Below, one piece after another: positions 4,857 to 46,422 of a stretch of 64,000 bases of DNA; position 1 is the first letter of the stretch, and every line of letters starts with the position of its first letter. Source of the stretch: Actinomycetota bacterium (GTDB taxonomy: Bacteria > Actinomycetota > Actinomycetes > S36-B12 > FW305-bin1); the NCBI GenBank assembly GCA_004297305.1, contig SCTR01000002.1:1-64000 (forward strand), written 5' to 3'. The notes under the pieces are model-generated. The model did no database searches, was not told where the DNA came from, and worked only from the letters and a program-made list of their open reading frames with translations. A program made the position numbers and the translations under genes.

Positions 4857-5996
4857 ATGAGTCCGGACCGAAGTGCGGAGCCGACGTCGAGTAGCCGGGA
4901 GCCGGCGTTGCGGCGTACACCGTTGGCCGACCGCCACGCCGCTTTGGGCGCGAAGACCGCGGATTTCGGTGGCTGGGAGATGCCGATCGAGTACGCCGGC
5001 GGTGGCGTGGTCGCCGAGCACACCGCGGTCCGCGAGCGAGTCGGCATCTTCGACGTGTCACACATGGGCAAGCTGGCCGCCCGCGGCCCCGGCGCCGTCG
5101 CGGTCCTCGACCGCCTGCTCACCAACGACCTGAATCGCATCGGGTCCGGCCAGGCGCAGTACTCGTTGCTGTGCAACGACTCCGGTGGCGTTGTCGACGA
5201 TCTCATCGTGTACCGGCGAACCGACCAGGACGTCCTGGTGATTCCCAACGCGGCGAACGCCGCCAAGGTCGCCGCGCTGGTCCGCGCGGCCGCTCGCGAC
5301 GACGACGTCGAGATCGCCGACGAGCACGACGCGCGGGGCATAGTCGCCGTGCAGGGCCCACGCTCCGCGCAGTTGCTGGACATCCTCGGTCTGCCGTCCT
5401 CGCAGGACTACATGGCCTTCGCCGACGCCACCTGGCGGGGCGAGCCCGTGGTCGTCTGCCGGACCGGATACACCGGCGAACACGGCTACGAACTGGTTGC
5501 CCCGTCCAGGCTCCTCGGCGCCTTGTGGGACGAGTTGCTCGAGCGTGGCGCCGGCCTCGGAATCGCCCCGTGCGGACTGGGGGCCAGGGACACCCTGCGC
5601 ACCGAGATGGGATATCCGCTGCACGGCCAGGACCTGTCGCCGGCGATCACCGTCGTGCAGGCACGGCTGGGTTGGGCCGTCGGCTGGGGCAAACCCGAGT
5701 TCGCCGGCCGGGACGCACTGCTGGCAGAACGTGCGGCCGGGCCGACGCGGTTGCTGTGGGGTCTGCGCTTCGTCGACCGCGGGATCCCGCGGCCGCACAT
5801 GGCCGTGACCGTGGACGGCGTCGCGGTGGGCGAGGTCACCAGCGGGACGTTTTCACCGACGTTGCGCACCGGCATCGCGCTCGCGCTGGTTTCCTCGTCG
5901 GTCGCCGAAGGCGACACGGTCGTGGTCGACGTGCGGGGCCGTCCGGCGCAGGCCACCGTCGTACGGCCGCCGTTCGTCCCGGCGGCCACGCGCTGA
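4857..5996 (+). CDS. gcvT: Glycine cleavage system T protein (aminomethyltransferase)
   Basis: A 379-residue protein beginning at ATG 4857. It transfers the methylene group from lipoyl-bound aminomethyl to tetrahydrofolate in glycine cleavage. Family motifs are GGWEMPIEY (near residue 40), the folate-site region YSLLCNDSGGVVDDLIVY with the conserved Asp, CRTGYTGEHGYEL (about 200-212), and the C-terminal beta-barrel. The length is normal. No gcvH or gcvP lies in the window, so it appears to be a stand-alone copy, as often seen in actinobacteria. An upstream in-frame start would add 51 residues of unlike sequence and was rejected. Confidence 0.95.
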   Translation: MSPDRSAEPTSSSREPALRRTPLADRHAALGAKTADFGGWEMPIEYAGGGVVAEHTAVRERVGIFDVSHMGKLAARGPGAVAVLDRLLTNDLNRIGSGQAQYSLLCNDSGGVVDDLIVYRRTDQDVLVIPNAANAAKVAALVRAAARDDDVEIADEHDARGIVAVQGPRSAQLLDILGLPSSQDYMAFADATWRGEPVVVCRTGYTGEHGYELVAPSRLLGALWDELLERGAGLGIAPCGLGARDTLRTEMGYPLHGQDLSPAITVVQARLGWAVGWGKPEFAGRDALLAERAAGPTRLLWGLRFVDRGIPRPHMAVTVDGVAVGEVTSGTFSPTLRTGIALALVSSSVAEGDTVVVDVRGRPAQATVVRPPFVPAATR

Positions 5997-31862: not shown

Positions 31863-32717
31863 TCAGGCGGCCGCGACGACCAGCAGCGTCACGCAGCCGG
31901 CGATCTCGACCACGGCACCCAGGACATCGCCGGTCACCCCGCCCAGCCGGCGCCGGGCGAGCCGTACCAGGACCAGCCCGGCGAGCACCCCGACGGCGGG
32001 GGCGACCGTCGTCACCACGTCGGATCGCAGCGACGCGTCGTCGTCGTGCCAGGCCACCACGGCCACGGCCGCCAGGCTCGCCAGGGTCACCGCCACGGCG
32101 GCGAGCGTGCCGACGGTGCCGGCGACCGACGCGCCCAAGCCGTCCGTCCGGGCCGCCGGGATGCGGCGATGACACGCCCAGACCACGGCGAGCCGGCTGC
32201 CGATACCGGCCGCGATCAGCGCTTGGGTGCCGTGACCGGCCGAGATGCACGTCGCCAGGGCGGCGGCGTCCAGCAGGAGTACCAGGACCAGCGTGGTGAC
32301 CCCGAACGGGCCGATGTCGGAGCGGCGCATGAGTTGCAGCGCTTCGTCGCGGGGCCGGCGGGAGCCCAGGCCGTCGGCGGTGTCGGCCAGCCCGTCCAGG
32401 TGCAGGCCGCGGGTCGCGACGGCCAGGGCGGCGATGCCGAGGGTGGCCGCGACGAGGTCGGCAAGTACGGTCGCCGTACCGCGATCGGCTCGGTCCAGCA
32501 GCAGGCGCGCGGCGAACACGATCAGCGCGGCGATCACCGCGAGCCCGGCTCCGACCAGCGGTGCGGCCAGTACGGCGGCCCGGGCGGTACGCCGGTCCAC
32601 CGACCGCGGCGGCGGCACGCGGATCGCCGTCAGCGTGCCGACGGCGAGCAGCAATCCGTCGACCCGGCGGGGTGCTGCGGTGCGCTCGCCGTCGCCGGAG
32701 CGGGCGGGCCGGCTCAT
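31863..32717 (-). CDS. cobS: Adenosylcobinamide-GDP ribazoletransferase (cobalamin synthase)
   Basis: A 284-residue membrane enzyme. The ATG at 32717 overlaps the cobT stop (ATGA). CobS joins adenosylcobinamide-GDP and alpha-ribazole (phosphate) to give adenosylcobalamin (phosphate). Motifs: the acidic metal-binding loop [37 protein letters not shown] near residues 100-140 and several hydrophobic helices after it. It is the last gene of the riboswitch-led operon; 98 nt separate its stop from the next minus-strand start. Length is slightly above the usual 250 residues because of the N-terminal extension ([14 protein letters not shown]). Confidence 0.95.
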
Positions 32718-33808
32718 CCCGGCGGGGGAGCAGCGGCGGGGCCGCTCACTCCGGCCTCGTCGAAGGTCGCCATGTCGCGCAGCGTCGCCGCCGCGGCCTG
32801 CACCAGCGGGAGGGCCAGCAGACCGCCGGTGCCTTCGCCGAGGCGCAGGTCGAGGTCGAGCAACGGGGAGAGCGCGAGGGCGTCGAGGGCGAGCCGATGC
32901 GCCGGCTCCGTCGACCGGTGACCGGCCTGCCACCACAGCGCCGCGGTCGGGCAGAGCCGAGCCGCGACCAGCGCGGCGGCGCCGGACACCACGCCGTCGA
33001 GGATCACCGGCGTCCGGCGTACGGCCGCCTGCAGCAGGAACCCGCTCATCGCCGCGACGTCGGCGCCGCCGACGGCCGCCAGCAGCGCTGCCGGGTCCGC
33101 CGTGTGTGGCCGGCCACGCCGCATCGCGTCTCGTACCGCCGCGCACTTGCGCATCCAGGTGAGGTCGTCGATGCCGGTGCCGCGCCCGACGACCTCGAGC
33201 GGCCCGGCGCCGGTGAGCAGCCCCACCAGCGTGGCGGCGACCGTGGTGTTGCCGATGCCCATGTCGCCCGGGATCAGCAGGTCGGCTCCGGCGTCGATCT
33301 CGTCGTCGGCGATCGCGAGCCCGGCGCGCAGTGCGGCGTCGGATTCGGCCGCGCTCATGGCGTCCTCGCGGTCGATCGAGCCGCTGCCGCGCCGGACCTT
33401 CCAGTGCCGGACCTCGTCGGGCAGCGCGGCGTCGTCGTCGGCATCCACCGCCAGGTCGAGGACACGGACGCCGGCTCCCAGCGCGGCGGCCATGACGGTG
33501 ACCGCCGCGCCACCGCCGACGAGGTTGTGGACCATCTGGGCGGTGACCTCGGGCGGGTACGCCGAGGTCGCCGCGGTGCGCGCGACGCCGTGGTCGCCGG
33601 CGAAGACGACGACCCGAGCCCGCTGCGGCGGCTGCGGCGGGCAGCGGCCGGTGGTCGCGGCCAGCCAGACCGACAGCGGTTCGAGCCGGCCGAGTGCTCC
33701 CGCGGGCTTGGTGAGCCGGTCCTGCCGCTCGCGCGCCTGCGCCGCGACGGTCTCGTCCGGCGGACGGACCTGAGCCGCCAGTGCGGCGAGGTCGAGCGGA
33801 GCGCTCAT
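32714..33808 (-). CDS. cobT: Nicotinate-nucleotide--dimethylbenzimidazole phosphoribosyltransferase
   Basis: A 364-residue enzyme making alpha-ribazole phosphate from the lower-ligand base. Motifs: [13 protein letters not shown] (N-terminus), [61 protein letters not shown] and the catalytic-Glu region [15 protein letters not shown]. The start overlaps the MBL-CobU stop by 4 nt (ATGA) and the end overlaps cobS the same way, so translation is coupled along the operon. A short Ala/Pro tail ([10 protein letters not shown]) follows the conserved end. Confidence 0.96.
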
Positions 33809-35340
33809 CGGGCCGACCCGCCGGCGCTGCCGGACAGCGGCGTACGGCCGCCCGCCGAGGTCGTTGGCGCCGCCGCAGGCGCGGCGCTGCCGGACAGCGG
33901 TACGGCGCGGCCGGCCACCAGCAGCGTCACGTCGTCGCACGCGGCGGCCACGCGGGTATTGAGGATGCCGAGGTGGTCCCGGCACAGCCGCCCGGAGGCG
34001 GTGGCCGGTACGACACCCATGCCGGTCTCGTTGGATACCAACACGATCCGGGCGCGGCTACGTCGGAGCGCGTCCAGCAGGCCGGCGACCGCGGCGTCGA
34101 GCGCGGCGGGGACCGCGGCGCCGCCGCCGTCCCAGGCGCCGTGCCGGTCGAGCAGGCCGGCCAGCCACAACGACAGGCAGTCGACGAGCACGGCCTGCCC
34201 CGGTCCGGCGGCGGCGACGACCTCGGCGATGTCCAGGGTCTCGATCGTGGTCCACGCCGCCGGGCGCCGGGCCTGGTGCGCGGCGATCCGGGCCGACCAT
34301 TCCGGGTCCGCCGGTGCGTCGGCCGGACCGGCAGTGCCGGCCGCCGCGGTCGCCACGTAGATCACGTCGTCGCGGTCGGCGAGCAGCCGCTCGGCGGTCA
34401 CCGACTTCCCGCTACGGGCGCCACCGAGCAGCAACGTCCGGCGCGCCGGTGGGGGCTGCGGCACTTCGGCTGCCGCCGTACCGGGCTGTGGCGCTTCGGC
34501 TGCCGCCGTACCGGGCTGCCGCCCGCTGCCCAGCTGCAGCGTGGTCAGGTCGTCCACGACGCTGACGCCCCAGGCGCCGAGGCGGTCACGCAGCACGGGC
34601 ACATCCGGATTGTGGTGGCCGAGGTGGACGGCGACGACGGCGGTGTGGTCGACGACGGCGCCGACGCGGCGGAGGTCCGCGAGCACCCGGGGGAAGGTCA
34701 CCAGGTCGAGATGGCCGGTGCCGTGGTCGGTGTGGTCGCCGAAGCTCTCCTCCAGGGCCACCAGGTCGTACGCCGTGTCCCGCAGGCTGTCGACGGTGGC
34801 CGCTGGGAGCGGGCCGGTGTCGGTCGCCCACAGCACCCGGGCGCCGTCCGGCCCGGTGACGTCGTACAGCAATGCCTCGGCCGCCAACGGGTCCGCGCCT
34901 CCCGGCGGGCAGTGCGCGGCCGGCACGGCGCGCACGCGGTAGCCCTCGCAGACCAGCGTCTCGCCGGGGCGCAGCGGGTGGAGGCTCACGCCGGACTGCG
35001 GTGCCAGCCAGTCCCGGCAGGCCGCGACGACCCCGGGCGGTCCCGCGACGGTCAACGCCGGTGCGCCGGCCCACGCGTGCCACAACAGGAACGCCGGGTC
35101 CAGGTGGTCGGGGTGGGCGTGGGTCACCAGGACGAGGCGGACGCCGTCGAGCACCCGGCCCGCGCGGGCGGCGGCCCGCAGCGTCTCCGGGCCGCATTCG
35201 AGCAGCACCGCGTCGTCGAGGAGGGCCGCCGGTTGTCCGCGCACCTCGCCGCGGGAGCGCAACGCCGTACAGGAAGCGCAGCGGCAGAACGGGTTCGGCC
35301 AGCCGTCGGCTCCCGCCGTACCGAGCAGGGTGACCTTCAT
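33805..35340 (-). CDS. cobU: Fusion of PhnP-type metallo-beta-lactamase hydrolase and CobU
   Basis: A 511-residue two-enzyme protein. Residues 1 to about 270 are a metallo-beta-lactamase-fold hydrolase close to PhnP-like phosphodiesterases: [20 protein letters not shown], the metal motif [18 protein letters not shown] and HLGHHNPD. A linker made of two 10-residue repeats ([10 protein letters not shown]) leads to CobU from about 320: Walker [56 protein letters not shown] and [15 protein letters not shown]. CobU phosphorylates adenosylcobinamide and transfers GMP to it. What the hydrolase half does for corrinoids is open. 4-nt overlaps lie on both sides. Confidence 0.93.
33823..33900. repeat. 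Direct repeat with mini-palindrome at the cobU end
   Basis: The 18-bp GGCGCTGCCGGACAGCGG occurs at 33823-33840 and 33883-33900, each containing the inverted repeat CGCTG-N5-CAGCG. A related CGCTGTCGGGCAGCG lies at about 35351, at the end of the ECF S gene. They encode the low-complexity C-terminal tails of these proteins. Confidence 0.7.
34465..34518. repeat. 30-bp tandem repeat coding the MBL-CobU linker
   Basis: TTCGGCTGCCGCCGTACCGGGCTG occurs at 34465-34488 and 34495-34518, a 30-bp period. It encodes the duplicated decapeptide linker between the hydrolase and CobU. Confidence 0.8.
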
Positions 35341-36308
35341 CCCGGCCGCCCGCTGTCGGGCAGCGCGTCGGCCGGAGTTTCCCTGCGCGGAGTTTCGTCG
35401 GCCGGAGTTTCCTTGCGCGGAGTTTCGCCGCCCACGGGGTTGCGGCCGGTGTCGGGCAGGGCGTCGCCGGCGGGGACGGCGGGCCTGAAGCGGACGTCGG
35501 CGTCGAAGCAGGCCCGACGGGCGGCGCGCCGCAGCGCGAGCAGCACCGGGCCGCCGGCGACGAGGATCAGCGCAGCGGTCAGCACGCCGCGGGGCAGGTC
35601 GTAGCCCAGCGACGTCGTCAGGTCGAACACGATCCAGCGCCGCAGGTTCGCCAGGACCGGATCGCCGGGGACGAACGAGACCTGGCTGGCGATACCGGAC
35701 AGGAACGGCCAGAACCACAGGTTCAGCAGCCAGCCGTAGAGCACCGCCGCGCCGGCGCCGTACGCCGCGCACATCACGACCTCGCGCCGGCCGCGGACCG
35801 GCGGCAGCAGGCCGGCTCCCAGTCCGACCCAGGCCGCACCGAGCATCTGGAACGGCAGCCAGGGCCCGACGCCGCCGGTGATCAGCGCCGAGGCGAACAT
35901 CGACACCGAGCCGAGTGCGAAGCCGAAACCCGGCCCCAGCGCCCGGCCACCGAGAACCACGACGATCCAGACCAGTTCGAGGCCGGCGACGCCGGCGGAC
36001 AGCGGTCGTACTGCGGCGACGACGGCGCTGAGCACCGCCAGTACGGCAATCCCCTTGGCGTCCAGGCCGCCGTCGGCCAGCGTCGCCAGCACCACGCCGA
36101 GGACCAGCGGCAGCAGCAGCGCGAACAGCCACGGCGCGTCGGCGGCGTGATCGACGGTGAACGACGTCGGATCCGCCAGGAACGGCCAGCCGAAGGCGAA
36201 GACGCCGACGACGCTGACCGCGGCCAGCGCCAGGACGGACCGGCGGCCCAGCGGCAACGCCCGCACCCGGGCCGGCGCCGGGGCAGGCCCGGCGGTCGTC
36301 GCCGTCAC
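35337..36308 (-). CDS. ECF transporter S component, probable cobalamin/cobinamide binder
   Basis: A 323-residue membrane protein; the GTG at 36308 overlaps the ATPase stop by 4 nt. It has about six to seven hydrophobic helices between residues 25 and 270 (including LELVWIVVVLGGRALGPGFGFALGSVSMF and VGPWLPFQMLGAAWVGLGAGLLP). The pattern is that of actinobacterial ECF S proteins located between cob genes and EcfA/EcfT. ECF S subunits bind the vitamin in the membrane and dock on EcfT. Cobalamin or cobinamide as substrate is inferred from the riboswitch and the neighbours. The C-terminal 50 residues are a repetitive hydrophilic tail (ETPADETPRRETPAD). Confidence 0.85.
   Translation of the reverse strand: MTATTAGPAPAPARVRALPLGRRSVLALAAVSVVGVFAFGWPFLADPTSFTVDHAADAPWLFALLLPLVLGVVLATLADGGLDAKGIAVLAVLSAVVAAVRPLSAGVAGLELVWIVVVLGGRALGPGFGFALGSVSMFASALITGGVGPWLPFQMLGAAWVGLGAGLLPPVRGRREVVMCAAYGAGAAVLYGWLLNLWFWPFLSGIASQVSFVPGDPVLANLRRWIVFDLTTSLGYDLPRGVLTAALILVAGGPVLLALRRAARRACFDADVRFRPAVPAGDALPDTGRNPVGGETPRKETPADETPRRETPADALPDSGRPG
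35368..35427. repeat. 30-bp tandem repeat in the ECF S tail
   Basis: Two adjoining copies of GTCGGCCGGAGTTTCCYTGC-GCGGAGTTTC (35368-35397 and 35398-35427) encode a duplicated decapeptide (ETPRxETPAD) at the C-terminus of the S component. Confidence 0.8.
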
Positions 36309-37915
36309 GGCCGCACCGCGGCGGTCACGGCGTCGAGGGTGAGCCACGGTTGCGGGCCGAGCACCTTGGACACCTGCGGGGCGAACATCGGCGAGGACAC
36401 GACGACCTCGCCGGTCGGCCCGTCGGCGACGATCTCACCGTCGGCCAGCAGTACTACCCGGTCGGCGACGTCGGCGACGAGCTCGACGTCGTGGGTGGCC
36501 ATGACGACGGCGTGGCCGCGCCCGGCGACCGCGCGCAGGATGTCCACGAGCCGGTCCTTGGCGGCGTAGTCCAGCCCGCGGGTCGGCTCGTCGAGCAGCA
36601 CCACCGGCGGCTCGGCGACGAGCACGACAGCCAGCGCGAGGCACAGTCGCTGCCCTTCGGACAGGTCGCGCGGATGGATGTCGTCGTCGATGTCGGGCGC
36701 GAGCAGGGCCAGCAGTGCCCGGGTCGAACCCGGGCTGACACCCGCGTCGGCGTCGGCTGCGCGGCACTCCTGGGCGACCCGGTCGCTGACCAGCAGGTCG
36801 CCCGGCTCCTGCGGCACCAGCCCGACCTGGCGGACCAGGTCGGGTCCGGCGAGGCCGGCGGGGTCGGCGTCGCCGACGCGGACCCGCCCGGTGTCGGGAC
36901 GCCGTAGCCCGACGAGCGTGGCCATGAGGGTGCTCTTGCCCGCCCCGTTGCGGCCCATGAGCGCGAGGACCTCGCCGGTGGTCACGGTCAGCTCGACGTC
37001 CCGCAACGCCTGGACCGCGCCGTACCGGACACTCACCCGTTCCAGTCGCGCCGCGGTGCCGGCCGGCGTCGTCACGGGCCGCGGCGCCGGGGGATCGAGG
37101 GCGGCCAGCGTCTCGCGCAGCGATACGGCGGCCCGGCGGGCGTCGCGGACCGACAGCGGCAACGGGGACCAGCCGGCCCACCGGCCCAGCCGGACGACCG
37201 GTGGCGCGACCGGGGCGTCCCGCATCACCTCGGCGGGTGCGCCGACCAGCAGCGGAGCGCCGCCACCGGGGACGACCACCACGCGGTCGGCGTACTGCAC
37301 GACGCGCTCCAGCCGGTGCTCGGCCAGCAGGATCGTCATGCCGAGGTCGTGCACCAGCCGCTGCAGTGCGGCCAGGACCTCTTCTGCCACAGCGGGATCC
37401 AGCGCGCTGGTGGGTTCGTCCAGCACCAGCACGGCCGGGTGTGACGTCAGAGCGGCGCCGATGGCGACCCGCTGCCGCTGCCCGCCGGACAGCCGGCGCA
37501 GCGGCCGGTCGCGCAGGGCGGCCAGGCCCAGCAGGTCCAACGTCTCCTCGACGCGGCGTCGCATCACCTGCGGGGCGACGCCGAGCGACTCCATGCCATA
37601 GGCCAGTTCGTCCTCGACGGTGTCGGTGACGAACGAACTCAGCGGGTCCTGCGGTACGTAGCCGACGACGTCGGCGAGGTCGCGCGGTGGATGCGTCGCG
37701 GTGTCGCGCCCGGCCACGCACACCCGGCCGTGCAGCGTCCCGCCGGTGAAGTGCGGGACCAGGCCGTTCACCGCACCGAGCAGTGTCGACTTGCCGCTGC
37801 CGGTGCTGCCGACCACCAGGACCAGTTCGCCCTCGGGGATCTGCAGGTCGACGTCGCGGAGGACCGGGGCCGGCGCGTCGAGGTACGTCACGGTGACGGA
37901 CTCGAAGGTGATCAC
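36305..37915 (-). CDS. ecfA: ECF transporter double ATPase (two EcfA domains fused)
   Basis: A 536-residue protein with two complete ABC ATPase domains. The first, about 1-230, has Walker A GSTGSGKST, Q-loop PQDPLSSFVTD, signature LSGGQRQRVAI and Walker B VLVLDEPTSALD. The second, about 290-520, has GRNGAGKST, PQEPGDLLVSD, signature LSEGQRLCLALA and VVLLDEPTRGLD. The H-loops are ILLAEHR and VMATHD. It energises vitamin uptake with EcfT and the S component. The GTG at 37915 overlaps the EcfT stop (GTGA), and the end overlaps the S component in the same way. The second signature (LSEGQ) deviates from LSGGQ, as often in heterodimer-like pairs. Confidence 0.95.
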   Translation of the reverse strand: MITFESVTVTYLDAPAPVLRDVDLQIPEGELVLVVGSTGSGKSTLLGAVNGLVPHFTGGTLHGRVCVAGRDTATHPPRDLADVVGYVPQDPLSSFVTDTVEDELAYGMESLGVAPQVMRRRVEETLDLLGLAALRDRPLRRLSGGQRQRVAIGAALTSHPAVLVLDEPTSALDPAVAEEVLAALQRLVHDLGMTILLAEHRLERVVQYADRVVVVPGGGAPLLVGAPAEVMRDAPVAPPVVRLGRWAGWSPLPLSVRDARRAAVSLRETLAALDPPAPRPVTTPAGTAARLERVSVRYGAVQALRDVELTVTTGEVLALMGRNGAGKSTLMATLVGLRRPDTGRVRVGDADPAGLAGPDLVRQVGLVPQEPGDLLVSDRVAQECRAADADAGVSPGSTRALLALLAPDIDDDIHPRDLSEGQRLCLALAVVLVAEPPVVLLDEPTRGLDYAAKDRLVDILRAVAGRGHAVVMATHDVELVADVADRVVLLADGEIVADGPTGEVVVSSPMFAPQVSKVLGPQPWLTLDAVTAAVRP

Positions 37916-39141
37916 GTCGTCGTCCCGGTTCTCGCAGCTGAGGTGCCGATGGTGGCAGCTCCGGTACGGACGTCGCCGTCAGCGGCCTGAGGCATTCGCA
38001 CCGGCCGCTGCCGGGGCGGCATCGGCAATCGCGCCGGCCGCTGCCGGGGCGGCATCGGCAATGGCACCGGCGGGGCGGCGACCGCGGGCAGCAGCGCCAG
38101 CAGGATCCCCGCGGCCGGCAGCAGCGGCAGCGCCGGCCACGCCGGCGGGTCGACGGGAGTCTGCAGACCGGCGACGCCGAGTACGCCGGCGGCGACCAGT
38201 GCCAGGGCGGCCGCGGCACCGGAGCCGGCGACCACCCACTCCGGCCAGGCCCACGGATCCGGGCGGTAGCGGGTCCGCACCCGGCTCCGCCCGCCGAACC
38301 CGAGCCCGACCAGCGCCGCGGCGAGGCCGAGCGCCAGGACGGGCAACCCGAACGCGCCGGGCGAGCCGCCGTCCAGCAGCCCGTACACCCCGACGCAGAC
38401 GCCGAGCAGGCCGCCGAGCACGAGTACCTGAGAGGTCAGCGCGGTACGCCGCGGCAGCGCCGCGACGCGGCCGTAGCCGCGCGAGTCCATCGCCGCCGCC
38501 AACGTCACAGACCGCTCCAGCGCCCCTTCCAGGACCGGCAGCGCGGCTCCGGTGATGCCTCGGAGGCCGGTGGAAGGGCGGCCCCGCAACCGCCGGGCGT
38601 CGCGAATGCGATGCAGGTCGCCGACCAGGGTCGGCGTGAAGCTCAGCGTCACCACGACGGTGACCCCCAGCGTGTACAGCGCGGCCGGTACCGAGCGCAG
38701 CAGCCGGCTGGGGGAGGCGAGCGAGGTCGCCGCACCCACGCAGGCGAGCAGCGTCGCCAGCCGGAGTCCTTCGTACACCGCGAACAGCAGGGCCTCGACC
38801 GTGAAGTCACCACCCAGCCGCACTCCGGCCAGCCACTCCGGCAGCGGCACGCTGGGTAGGCCCAGCAGGGTGTGCGTACCCATCGGGGCGCCCAGCAGCG
38901 CCTGGAAGATCACCCGTACGCCGATCACGATCAGACCGAGCCGCAGCAGGACGGCGAACGAGCGCGACCACGGCGCGTCCGGCCGGCGCGCAGCCACGAC
39001 GTAGCCGGCCACGCCCAGGATCAACAGCAACAACAACGGATTCGTGGTGCGGCTCGCCGCGGTGGCCAGGCCGAGCGCCCAGAGCCACCAGGCGCCCGGA
39101 TGCAGCCACCGGGGGGCCCGGATCGTGCTCGCCGGCGTCAA
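37912..39141 (-). CDS. ecfT: ECF transporter T component (CbiQ family)
   Basis: A 409-residue membrane protein; TTG at 39141 is the best start, in frame and 28 nt after the previous stop. It has multiple helices, SRTTNPLLLLLILG near the N-terminus and the two Arg-containing coupling motifs LHRIRDARRLRGR (about 183) and AMDSRGYGR (about 218) that dock on the ATPases. It is longer than typical EcfT (about 260 residues). The extra C-terminal part adds three or four helices and then a basic Pro/Arg tail made of an 11-residue repeat (LPMPPRQRPAR). The tail overlaps the ATPase start by 4 nt. Confidence 0.9.
   Translation of the reverse strand: MTPASTIRAPRWLHPGAWWLWALGLATAASRTTNPLLLLLILGVAGYVVAARRPDAPWSRSFAVLLRLGLIVIGVRVIFQALLGAPMGTHTLLGLPSVPLPEWLAGVRLGGDFTVEALLFAVYEGLRLATLLACVGAATSLASPSRLLRSVPAALYTLGVTVVVTLSFTPTLVGDLHRIRDARRLRGRPSTGLRGITGAALPVLEGALERSVTLAAAMDSRGYGRVAALPRRTALTSQVLVLGGLLGVCVGVYGLLDGGSPGAFGLPVLALGLAAALVGLGFGGRSRVRTRYRPDPWAWPEWVVAGSGAAAALALVAAGVLGVAGLQTPVDPPAWPALPLLPAAGILLALLPAVAAPPVPLPMPPRQRPARLPMPPRQRPVRMPQAADGDVRTGAATIGTSAARTGTTT
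38001..38062. repeat. 33-bp tandem repeat in the EcfT tail
   Basis: CCGGCCGCTGCCGGGGCGGC-ATCGGCAAT occurs at 38001-38029 and 38034-38062, a 33-bp period, encoding the repeated undecapeptide at the EcfT C-terminus. Confidence 0.8.
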
Positions 39142-39169: not shown

Positions 39170-40150
39170 TCATTGCCGCCGACCCCGCGAACGCCACCAG
39201 GCGGCGGTGCCGAGGCCGCCGGCCAGCACGACCACGACCGCAGCGGTCAGCGGGCCGGCCAGGGTGCTGCTCGCGGCGACTGGTGCCGCGCCCAGGGACA
39301 GGCTGACCGAGGGCTCGGCTTGGGGTTGGTCGGACGAGGACGACGAGTCGCTGGTCGTCGGCGTGCTGCTCGCGCCAGCGTCGACGCCGGTGGGCGCGCC
39401 GCTGCTCGACGACCCGGTCGGTGCCGCGGAAGTGCCTGGGGGAGTACCGGTCGCGCCGCTCGGCTTCGTGGTCGACGCCGTCGCCCGGCCACTGGCCGAC
39501 GGCCCCGTCGTGGTGGGATCCGGCGTCGCGCGGCGCGGTGACGAGCTGGCGCGGGGTGGGCTGGTGGTGGCCGCTGCGGTCGGCGTGGTCCCGACGACCA
39601 CCGCGCACTCACCGGACGGATAGCCGTCCAGTCCGCAGACGAGCCCCCCGGGGCCGGTGCGGACCGCCGCCGCGGCGGACAGGACCTGTGCCCCGGTCCA
39701 TGCCGGGGGCGCCACGACGCAGCTGCCGCGCAACGCCCCGGGCGGGCTCTGCCCGTCGGGGGCGTCGGCCGGGACGCCGTAGTCGACGACGACCGCGACC
39801 CGCTTGCGACCGTCCTGCGCCGGCGTCGACCCGCAGACCTCGGCGAAGGCGGTCGACGCCGGCTGCCGCGGGACCAGGCCCGACGTGGTCCCGGTCGACA
39901 CCCCGAACCGCCAGCCCTCCGCGGTCCCGTCGGCCGGGACCCGGTACGCCGGGCCCTGCTGGGCGAACACCCAACTGGTCCCGGTCGAGGACCAGTACGT
40001 CCAGTACCGGTACGCGGCGGCCTGCGCCGCCCCCGCGGCCAGGACGCCGATCACCAGCCCGGCTGCCGCGGCCAGCAGCCCGGCCGCGGCACGCCGACGA
40101 ACCCGGCCGGCGGGCAGCCGGCCGGGTTCGGTGCGAGCGGAACTGGTCAC
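39170..40150 (-). CDS. Exported, membrane-anchored protein of the ECF-toroid locus (SCO2322-like)
   Basis: A 326-residue protein; the GTG at 40150 lies 14 nt after the previous stop. It has a signal peptide at about 18-45 (AAAGLLAAAAGLVIGVLAAGAAQAA), a compact extracellular domain of about 130 residues with AYRYWTYWSSTGTSWVFAQ, GTAEGWRFGVS and two Cys pairs (CGSTPAQDGRKR, GSCVVAPPAW, VCGLDGYPSGECAVV), a Ser/Thr/Pro-rich stalk of about 90 residues and a final transmembrane helix with a basic end (WWRSRGRRQ). As I recall, a protein of this kind neighbours the same ECF genes in Streptomyces. A role as surface partner of the toroid protein is inference. Confidence 0.8.
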   Translation of the reverse strand: MTSSARTEPGRLPAGRVRRRAAAGLLAAAAGLVIGVLAAGAAQAAAYRYWTYWSSTGTSWVFAQQGPAYRVPADGTAEGWRFGVSTGTTSGLVPRQPASTAFAEVCGSTPAQDGRKRVAVVVDYGVPADAPDGQSPPGALRGSCVVAPPAWTGAQVLSAAAAVRTGPGGLVCGLDGYPSGECAVVVGTTPTAAATTSPPRASSSPRRATPDPTTTGPSASGRATASTTKPSGATGTPPGTSAAPTGSSSSGAPTGVDAGASSTPTTSDSSSSSDQPQAEPSVSLSLGAAPVAASSTLAGPLTAAVVVVLAGGLGTAAWWRSRGRRQ

Positions 40151-40164
40151 GTCCGGGTCGACGC

Positions 40165-41361
40165 TCAGCGGCGCCGGCTGGTCTTCAGCGTCGTGATCAG
40201 GTTGACGCCACCGAAGTTCTTCGGGTTGAGGTTCCGGGAGTCGGTGACCAGCAGCAGCGTGCCCAGCGCGCCGGCGCTGGCCTGACCCTGCAGGTCGGTG
40301 GCGTACGCCGAGACATGCTGGGCCAGTTGGGTTGTCGCCTTCTTCACCGCCGTACGCCCGTAGCCGGAGCCGACCAGCGACAGGACCGAGTACGCCGTGG
40401 TGTTCCAGTCCGTGCCAGGCCCGAAGGCGTTGGGAATCGTGCCGTTGCCGCTGTTGAGGGTGCGGGCGAGCCAGCCTGCGGCACTCATCGCCACGGTCGT
40501 CCCGGCGGCCGCCGTACCGGCGCACGCGTTTGGCGTGACCTTGCTGACCGGCTGGGCGGGCCGGGGCAGCGCGGTGGTCAGCCCGGCCAGACCCTGGGCG
40601 GTGGCGTAGGCGTTGGCCAGCAGCGGCGCCGGGCCCTGGTAGGCCAGCGCGCCGGCGTCGGCACCGGCCGCGCATCCGAGCGCCACGGTGCGCAGGAACG
40701 CCGCGCCGTTCTTGCCGTTCGTCTTCGTCTTGCCCACCGGCGTCGCCGTACCGCGGAACGCGCTCAGCACGATCCCGGTCGAGTTGGCGTCGGACTGCCC
40801 GCCGTCGTAGTAGGGGAAGCCGCCGTCGGGGTTCTGCGCCCGCTTCACCCAGCCGATCGCCCGGGCGGCCTTGCCGGACCGGCCGACGGCCGCCAGCGCC
40901 AGGGCCGCCGCAGCGGTGGAGTTCGTGTCCTCCCCGGTGAACGTCGCCAGGTCGGTCGCCGGGCACGGTGCGGTGAGGTCGGCGCGGAACGCCACGAAAC
41001 CGCCGTCGGCGCACTGCTGGCGGACCAGCCAGTCGATCGCCGATGTCGGGACCGCCGAGTCGGCAGCGACCAGGCCGAGGATGGCCAGGCTCTGCCGGTA
41101 GACGCCGTCGTACGTCGGGTCCTGGGCACCGAACAGGCCCTTGGTGGCCGGGCCGTTGGCGCTCAGTGCCGTCGCGACCGGCGTCGCGCTGTTTGCCGTC
41201 GCGACCGTGGTGGCGGTGCTCGGTGCGGGGGCTGCGGCGGCCGGCAGGACCGGCACGAGCAGGCTGGCGGCGACGGCGGTGGCCGCGACGCCGGCGAGGG
41301 CTGTCGTACGACGCGGCCTCGCGGCTGGGACAGCAGGAGTGGCAGGGGACGGGCCGGGCAT
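40165..41361 (-). CDS. Secreted alpha/alpha-toroid protein (prenyltransferase/terpene-cyclase repeats), candidate corrinoid capture protein
   Basis: A 398-residue exported protein, first gene of the riboswitch operon; the ATG at 41361 follows AAAGG. Signal peptide about 1-45 (RRTTALAGVAATAVAASLL to LPAAAAP). The body has the repeat pattern of the prenyltransferase/squalene-cyclase family: SAIDWLVRQQCADGGFVAF, NSTAAAALALAAVGR, AIGWVKRAQNPDGGFPYYDGGQSDANSTGIVLSAF, ATAQGLAGLTTAL, NTTAYSVLSLVGSGYG. The DxDD acid motif of true cyclases is absent. Animal intrinsic factor and transcobalamin share this alpha6/alpha6 barrel fold, so extracellular corrinoid binding is an attractive inference given the B12 riboswitch and ECF genes. 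Confidence 0.85.
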   Translation of the reverse strand: MPGPSPATPAVPAARPRRTTALAGVAATAVAASLLVPVLPAAAAPAPSTATTVATANSATPVATALSANGPATKGLFGAQDPTYDGVYRQSLAILGLVAADSAVPTSAIDWLVRQQCADGGFVAFRADLTAPCPATDLATFTGEDTNSTAAAALALAAVGRSGKAARAIGWVKRAQNPDGGFPYYDGGQSDANSTGIVLSAFRGTATPVGKTKTNGKNGAAFLRTVALGCAAGADAGALAYQGPAPLLANAYATAQGLAGLTTALPRPAQPVSKVTPNACAGTAAAGTTVAMSAAGWLARTLNSGNGTIPNAFGPGTDWNTTAYSVLSLVGSGYGRTAVKKATTQLAQHVSAYATDLQGQASAGALGTLLLVTDSRNLNPKNFGGVNLITTLKTSRRR

Positions 41362-41520: not shown

Positions 41521-41620
41521 GGAGCCGATCGTGACCGCCAGGTGCTCCGGCTTGCCGCAAAGGCGGCTCACGGTTGCGGGTCAGCGCCGGAATCGCACCG
41601 GCTTCCCCTGGATCTCGGAC
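41521..41620 (-). ncRNA. Cobalamin riboswitch (short, class-II-like)
   Basis: The minus strand carries the conserved core in order: AGGGGAAGCCGGTGCGATTC, then GGCGCTGACCCGCAACCGTG, then GCCGCCTTTGCGGC and the B12 box GCCGGAGCACCTGGC. CCGAGATC at the 5' end can pair with GATCGG at the 3' end as P1. It is compact, lacking the long peripheral arms of class I. It sits 160 nt upstream of the secreted toroid gene and so should repress the whole capture-transport-assembly operon when adenosylcobalamin is plentiful. A frame starting at 41571 runs through the aptamer and was rejected as the start. Confidence 0.93.
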
Positions 41621-41765
41621 ACGTGAATTCAGTTGTGGACCAACGGACCTTCCCACGACCGCGGCGGCGCCGTCAAAGCAACCCCCGGATCGGTACGGCG
41701 GCCCGCCGGGTACCGTCGGCGTCGCCGTGGCACTGCTCGTCACGGCTGGACGGGAGGCGGCGGCA

Positions 41766-45616: not shown

Positions 45617-46363
45617 TTAGCTGTCGGTACGACGGTCGTCGCCACCGCGGTCGTCGACGCCACGGTGGTCGTCGCCCTTGTGGTGCGCCTTGTTCTTGTG
45701 GTGCCGGGCGTCGCCCTGCCGGACCACGTCGTCGGAGGTCGCCCCGACGATGGTGTCGCGGCCCTTCCCGCCGTACGCCCGGTCCGCGCCCGGCCCGATG
45801 ACGAGCGTGTCGCGGCCGGCGTCCCCGGCGACCACGTCGTCGCCCTCGCCGCCCACGATCGTGTCGTTGCCGCGGCCACCGCTGACCCGGTCGTCGCCGG
45901 CACCGGCGTCGATGACGTCGTTGCCGCCGTCGCCCAGGATCTTGTCGTCGCCGAGGCCGCCGGCCAGCGTGTCGTTGCCACCGCTGGAGAAGAACCAGCC
46001 GGCCTTGTGGTGGTGGCGGAAGCCGAACCAGCCCATGTCACCGATGACGAGGTCGTCCCCGGCACCCGCGTCGACCCAGTCCGCGCCTGCGCCGGCGAGG
46101 ATCACGTCCCGCTCGGCGGAGCCGCAGATCGTGTCGTTCCCGGCACCGGCCAGCACGACGCCGGGTCCGGTCAGCACGATGACGTCGTCACCGCTGGTTC
46201 CCTTGACCTTCCCGGAACCGGTGATGGTGGCTGCCAGCCCGTTGCAGCTGACCGGTGCGGGGGTTGGGTCGTTGGCTGCCTGTGCCGGTGCCGCGAGAAG
46301 TGTTCCGGCGGCGATCATGCCGAGACCGGCGATACCGCCGAGTCCTGCCCGGACGATGCTCAT
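45617..46363 (-). CDS. Secreted RTX-type calcium-binding protein with His/Asp-rich tail
   Basis: A 248-residue protein; the ATG at 46363 follows GAAGGGG. Signal peptide about 1-30 (MSIVRAGLGGIAGLGMIAAGTLLAAPAQA). Residues 50-215 contain about eight nonapeptide repeats GGxGxDxxx (GAGNDTICG, GAGADWVDAG, GLGDDKILG, GGNDVIDAG, GRGNDTIVG, GEGDDVVAG), forming a calcium-dependent beta-roll. The roll is interrupted by an aromatic/His insert GWFGFRHHHKAGWFFSS. The C-terminus is a charged tail rich in His and Asp (RHHKNKAHHKGDDHRG). It uses Sec export rather than a type-1 system. A metal-buffering or cell-envelope role is inference. Confidence 0.88.
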   Translation of the reverse strand: MSIVRAGLGGIAGLGMIAAGTLLAAPAQAANDPTPAPVSCNGLAATITGSGKVKGTSGDDVIVLTGPGVVLAGAGNDTICGSAERDVILAGAGADWVDAGAGDDLVIGDMGWFGFRHHHKAGWFFSSGGNDTLAGGLGDDKILGDGGNDVIDAGAGDDRVSGGRGNDTIVGGEGDDVVAGDAGRDTLVIGPGADRAYGGKGRDTIVGATSDDVVRQGDARHHKNKAHHKGDDHRGVDDRGGDDRRTDS

Positions 46364-46411
46364 GGTGACCCCTTCCGTCACATGCCGGCGCTCCGTCGCG
46401 CCAGTGCGGCC

Positions 46412-46422
46412 CATGACTACCC
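46412..46422 (-). promoter_or_regulatory. GGGTAGTCATG box upstream of the RTX gene
   Basis: Minus-strand GGGTAGTCATG lies about 50 nt before the start codon. It shares TAGTCATG with the boxes upstream of two secreted Ig-like genes (14855-14865 and 19835-19845). Confidence 0.4.

Follow-up and report, generated by a model that had tools for sequence, protein, structure and literature searches.

The window analysed here, a 64,000-nucleotide stretch of an Actinomycetota genome (contig SCTR01000002.1, assembly GCA_004297305.1), carries a run of minus-strand genes with an AdoCbl-II cobalamin riboswitch upstream (RF01689, positions 41532 to 41621, minus strand; 38.4 bits in cmscan, gathering score 36.5). 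A gene for a secreted, SCO2321-like alpha/alpha toroid (40165 to 41361) precedes the gene under study (39170 to 40150), which starts with GTG and encodes a 326-residue protein of the SCO2322 family, hereafter called the head protein after its folded domain. The stop codon of the toroid gene (40165 to 40167) leaves a gap of 14 nt (40151 to 40164) to the head gene, exactly the distance given in the sequence-only reading. Downstream of the head gene, further genes encode a CbiQ-type transmembrane subunit EcfT (37912 to 39141; Pfam CbiQ, 31.9 bits), an EcfA with two ATPase domains in a single chain (36305 to 37915) and the substrate-specific component EcfS (35337 to 36347, start approximate; Pfam ECF_trnsprt PF12822, 32.2 bits). 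They are followed by an ORF in which CobU sits behind a PhnP-like metallo-beta-lactamase domain (33805 to 35319; NF004469, 161.5 bits), by CobT (32714 to 33985; TIGR03160, 404.7 bits) and by CobS (31863 to 33146; NF001279, E 2e-43, below the cut-off of this model); the positions of CobT and CobS are ORF limits and the true starts probably lie inside. Judged from these assignments, the gene set looks like an operon for the uptake and salvage of corrinoids. Elsewhere in the window, a secreted protein with RTX-type calcium-binding GGxGxD repeats (45617 to 46414, minus strand), whose family matches all stay far below cut-off, is unrelated to the B12 operon.

The arrangement is not peculiar to the window. 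In 80 loci from named genomes (Streptomyces, Kribbella, Nocardioides, Terrabacter, Phytoactinopolyspora, Nanopelagicales and others), the order (toroid)-head-ecfT-ecfA-ecfS holds as far as the contigs reach, with overlapping open frames blurring the order of the last genes in two of them, and the window agrees with it. EcfT accompanies the head at every locus where the contig is long enough, and the toroid is present in 64 of the 80 loci and absent in 16. Cobalamin riboswitches were found at most of the related loci tested; at the toroid-less loci L050, L096, L109 and L148 the riboswitch directly precedes the head gene, and five other toroid-less loci showed no cobalamin riboswitch above the gathering score. 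The most reduced form occurs in a genome of 1.35 Mb (L050), which keeps head, EcfT, EcfA and EcfS and has neither toroid nor stalk nor anchor; its head gene (4998 to 5770, minus strand) stands immediately after the AdoCbl riboswitch.

The head protein of the window begins with a signal segment (residues 1 to 43, approximate; 40022 to 40150), of which residues 21 to 42 are hydrophobic with a Kyte-Doolittle 19-mer mean of 2.27. The head domain follows (residues 45 to 190; 39581 to 40018), predicted by AlphaFold2 from 55 homologues as one compact domain (mean pLDDT 94.9, pTM 0.90). The model is rich in beta structure, with strands at 2-11, 16-18, 32-41, 72-79, 97-103, 119-121, 127-130 and 140-143 of the head numbering and two short helices at 54-62 and 109-116. 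The aromatic segment YRYWTYWSSTGTSW (YRYWTYW) starts at residue 47 of the protein. In the family alignment the aromatic strands are invariant, and so are, across 56 homologues, all four cysteines (residues 106, 144, 172 and 182 of the protein; 62, 100, 128 and 138 of the head). Next comes a stalk of Ser, Thr, Pro, Ala and Gly (residues about 190 to 292; 39275 to 39583), previously estimated at about 90 residues and measured here at about 100, with 74% S/T/P/A or 83% if G is counted. The chain ends in a single hydrophobic helix (19-mer mean of 1.92 at residue 291), the transmembrane anchor (residues about 293 to 318; 39197 to 39274), and an Arg-rich tail. Thus, hydropathy, composition, cysteine conservation and the structural model bear out the earlier description of an exported protein with a small, aromatic- and cysteine-rich beta head, a Ser/Thr/Pro/Ala stalk and one C-terminal helix. 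A C-terminal segment above the same hydropathy threshold was found in 71 of 72 homologues, and the stalk ranges from 14 to 128 residues among them (median 30), so it is the anchor alone that is conserved, not the stalk.

As to its family, the head reaches 155.2 bits against NF040672 (cut-off 85) over profile positions 1 to 143 of 144, which is more than a chance match. By this profile, the head is a member of the already catalogued, unnamed SCO2322 family, from which nothing sets it apart: the entire head domain matches and the neighbouring genes are the same in Streptomyces and others. Within the class, 103 of 296 sampled genomes carry a head above the NF040672 cut-off. The Pfam search of the head gave no match, with the gathering score of PF14478 (DUF4430) not reached.

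The first sign of an unusual history were weak, split matches in which profile positions 97-141 lay ahead of 5-65 within one ORF. The search with the head profile then yielded nine cases with swapped halves about four residues apart, both halves being significant in eight of them, besides further, weaker cases. A profile of unpermuted relatives (20 sequences) was compared with that of the permuted head family (56 sequences). Uncut, the two aligned over 42 columns with a score of 80; when the permuted profile was doubled, the alignment extended over 101 columns across the junction (probability 99.5, E 8e-23). A rotation scan peaked at 143 when the permuted profile was cut at columns 40-64, corresponding to the loop between the EGWRF strand and KRVAVVVD, while the best score of 60 column shuffles was 21.9. 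The YWxYW strand, the VVVDYG strand and the cysteine-containing turn after the latter are kept in both orders. These profile comparisons identify the head as a circularly permuted form of its unpermuted relatives, with the halves in opposite order: its first half (YRYWTYW to EGWRFGVS; 39881 to 40012) corresponds to their C-terminal half, and its second half (KRVAVVVDYG to GLVCGLDGYPSGEC; 39590 to 39805) to their N-terminal half and to that of DUF4430. Viral contigs searched with the unpermuted head gave no match.

The unpermuted relatives provide the bridge to DUF4430. Against a DUF4430 profile built from 23 domains, their profile aligned over 94 columns, i.e., the entire domain (probability 93.6, E 2e-7), compared with 1.2 for an unrelated toroid profile used as control; an earlier DUF4430 set had given 37.0 against at most 18.8 for shuffles. 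The DUF4430 profile in turn found, in the PDB, 3U7Z, the beta region of transcobalamin-1 (4KKI, residues 360-430) and the beta domain of transcobalamin-2 (5NO0, 2BB5), at E values of 0.001 to 0.05 at which a few unrelated matches also occurred. DUF4430 is known to cover the C-terminal part of transcobalamin (PMC4350170). Through this two-step profile chain, the head is homologous to DUF4430 and to the beta domain of transcobalamin, intrinsic factor and haptocorrin, from which it differs in its circularly permuted strand order, its four invariant cysteines and the missing PF14478 match. The canonical linear order of DUF4430 is not that of the head, as its halves are reversed, and only the second half matches DUF4430 directly (70-86%). 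The comparison with DUF4430 and transcobalamin beta domains, proposed along with the first reading, was therefore positive at the profile level, as a circular permutant, but not in direct fold searches: Foldseek and VIA runs of the permuted head model against the PDB reached at best an E of 2.0 and a Z of 2.3 and brought up neither a DUF4430 nor a transcobalamin structure. Since both programs align in sequence order, this outcome is uninformative for a permutant. Likewise, PDB sequence searches with the permuted or the unpermuted head profile returned nothing relevant, and Pfam gave no DUF4430 match for the unpermuted relatives. The permutation thus creates a blind spot, because of which sequential fold searches and Pfam miss the relationship. 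Few genomes in the class carry DUF4430 itself (4 of 296); in the phylum's other classes it is common (76 of 396 overall).

The neighbouring toroid aligns with NF053823, the SCO2321 family, over profile positions 6-352 of 405 with 214.3 bits, below the cut-off of 300. Among 142 genomes with a match, only 26 pass this cut-off, and the model therefore leaves most such toroids without a name. The AlphaFold2 model (pLDDT 91.6) has an SHC-type fold, and its closest solved structures among the matches listed are squalene-hopene and drimenyl cyclases (Z 23). No transcobalamin was among the matches listed in the toroid structure searches, which is not evidence against a relation to transcobalamin. Unlike the prenyltransferase/squalene cyclase toroids, the window toroid lacks the catalytic DxDD, as do 41 of 42 toroids, and the toroid alignment shows no conserved His. 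A membrane anchor is present in most toroids of the Streptomyces type (41 of 64) and is missing in the window, where the anchored head could retain the anchor-less toroid.

The toroid, too, occurs in two orders. Its profile matched linearly in all 64 toroids adjoining SCO2322 heads, whereas in 20 of 20 genomes with heads in the unpermuted order the toroid was swapped, with profile positions of about 220-335 ahead of about 10-215. The corresponding rotation scan climbed without breaks from 308 to its one peak, 443, reached with a cut near 220 and 292 aligned columns, so that a repeat slip is excluded. The head and the toroid of one of the 20 genomes (G008) are located on separate contigs. On the evidence of these alignments, the toroid is permuted in step with the head, the order of the window toroid being permuted relative to that of toroids beside unpermuted heads; the pair is a natural example of partner proteins rearranged together. 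The correlation probably reflects few events, and joint inheritance within a single operon, not mechanical coupling, may account for it.

Among the relatives, a single ORF of 1228 residues (L036, 5736 to 9419, minus strand), with a cobalamin riboswitch just upstream, joins an unpermuted head, an Ig-like region, two toroid units and a C-terminal transmembrane segment. By its domain content this fusion is a one-chain bacterial transcobalamin-like protein. It is the sole fusion seen, and within its family one genome alone carries unpermuted heads; no toroid-head fusion was seen beside permuted heads among the loci examined.

These results bear on the idea, raised from the sequence of the window, that the toroid is the alpha domain of an intrinsic-factor-like binder and the head its missing lid. 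The homology, the strict adjacency, the matching permutation and the natural fusion support it in part, but the direct fold searches with the head gave no usable match, the toroid is nearest to terpene cyclases, and 37 of the 103 head-bearing genomes have no SCO2321-type toroid match anywhere. The toroid is not obligatory for the head, whose role therefore goes beyond covering that toroid as a lid. We consider it moderately probable that the product of the head gene is the anchored partner in a transcobalamin-like corrinoid trap made of two chains, which serves the ECF importer. Besides the points just named, the restriction of the direct DUF4430 match to one half of the head and the lack of a conserved His in the toroid weigh against it. 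More tentatively, and falling somewhat short of an even chance in our estimation, the pair would be a two-chain actinobacterial transcobalamin, i.e., a toroid and a tethered lid, both co-permuted in the main lineage and feeding an ECF transporter. In terms of physiology, the gene content suggests that the head probably helps actinobacteria to catch vitamin B12 and to pass it to the importer.

A mechanism may be outlined as follows. The head is a circularly permuted domain of the DUF4430/transcobalamin beta type, and the upstream toroid a permuted, presumably non-catalytic alpha/alpha barrel. The head might bind the corrinoid on its aromatic strand face (Y3, Y5, W6, Y8, W9 and W16, head numbering), either alone or with the ligand sandwiched between head and toroid. 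Given the downstream cobU, cobT and cobS, cobinamide would be an alternative ligand to cobalamin. Anchor and flexible stalk could hold the trap over the membrane while permitting transfer of the ligand to EcfS, and adenosylcobalamin rising inside the cell would shut the operon by means of the riboswitch.

The most serious alternative has the head act on the transporter, as an extracellular cap or chaperone positioning or gating EcfS/EcfT, with the corrinoid being bound by the toroid where there is one. We regard it as unlikely, yet it draws on the fact that the head is tied more closely to the ECF genes than the toroid is: ecfT stands beside it wherever the contig suffices, toroid-less loci included, and in the toroid-less 1.35-Mb genome the head has lost even stalk and transmembrane segment. 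Opposed to this are the homology of the head to a ligand-contacting domain and the invariant aromatic strands, which suggest a ligand face; moreover, no conserved transporter-docking surface was identified. Much less probable is a head of the ordinary wall or adhesion type, which came into the operon by chance and resembles DUF4430 by convergence; the low-complexity stalk and transmembrane segment are typical of wall proteins and the head has no significant match among PDB structures, but the linkage to ecfT and cobalamin riboswitches is fixed across Actinomycetes and the profile matches lie far above shuffled and unrelated controls. The least probable reading makes head and toroid a surface enzyme for corrinoid processing instead of a transport trap, with the toroid derived from type II terpene cyclases, as its nearest solved folds and the remodelling genes cobU/T/S in the operon might suggest, but the catalytic motif is missing in nearly all toroids and head and ECF genes are kept at many loci that have no toroid.

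If the favoured reading of an anchored corrinoid trap holds, it has consequences for the understanding of ECF importers. The current view is that transporters of this class need no binding protein outside the cell, and a trap of this kind would challenge it. The homology of the head also links the B12 carriers of animals to a bacterial uptake operon and gives an unnamed family an evolutionary identity and a testable job. Compared with transcobalamin and intrinsic factor, toroid and head are here two genes, the head being a separate, membrane-anchored chain. ECF-CbrT is likewise an ECF importer, transporting cobalamin and cobinamide, and moves cobalamin in proteoliposomes without added extracellular binder (PMC5997447); hence, the head may raise affinity or selectivity and not be essential. 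What differs in the window is the dedicated single operon with an extracellular head and, usually, a toroid, and an EcfS assigned by PF12822 alone. By description, the trap may also be likened to BtuG and BtuH of Bacteroides, where surface capture of corrinoids feeds an importer, these surface proteins serving the TonB-dependent BtuB (PMC10404256, PMC8941943). The permuted relation to transcobalamin and DUF4430 and the co-permuted partner appear to be new: searches for SCO2322, SCO2321 and a permuted transcobalamin found no paper in the literature covered, which excluded most subscription journals.

Unpermuted heads also occur in settings of their own. In a Streptomyces-type genome (L064, 7134 to 14137, plus strand; L065 is similar), a second ECF system comprises an unpermuted head, EcfT, EcfAA, EcfS and a swapped toroid, followed within the cluster by a separate PF14478 DUF4430 protein. 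At another locus (L034, 173 to 11899), a 12-kb stretch contains four cobalamin riboswitches, with two unpermuted heads and two swapped toroids next to them.
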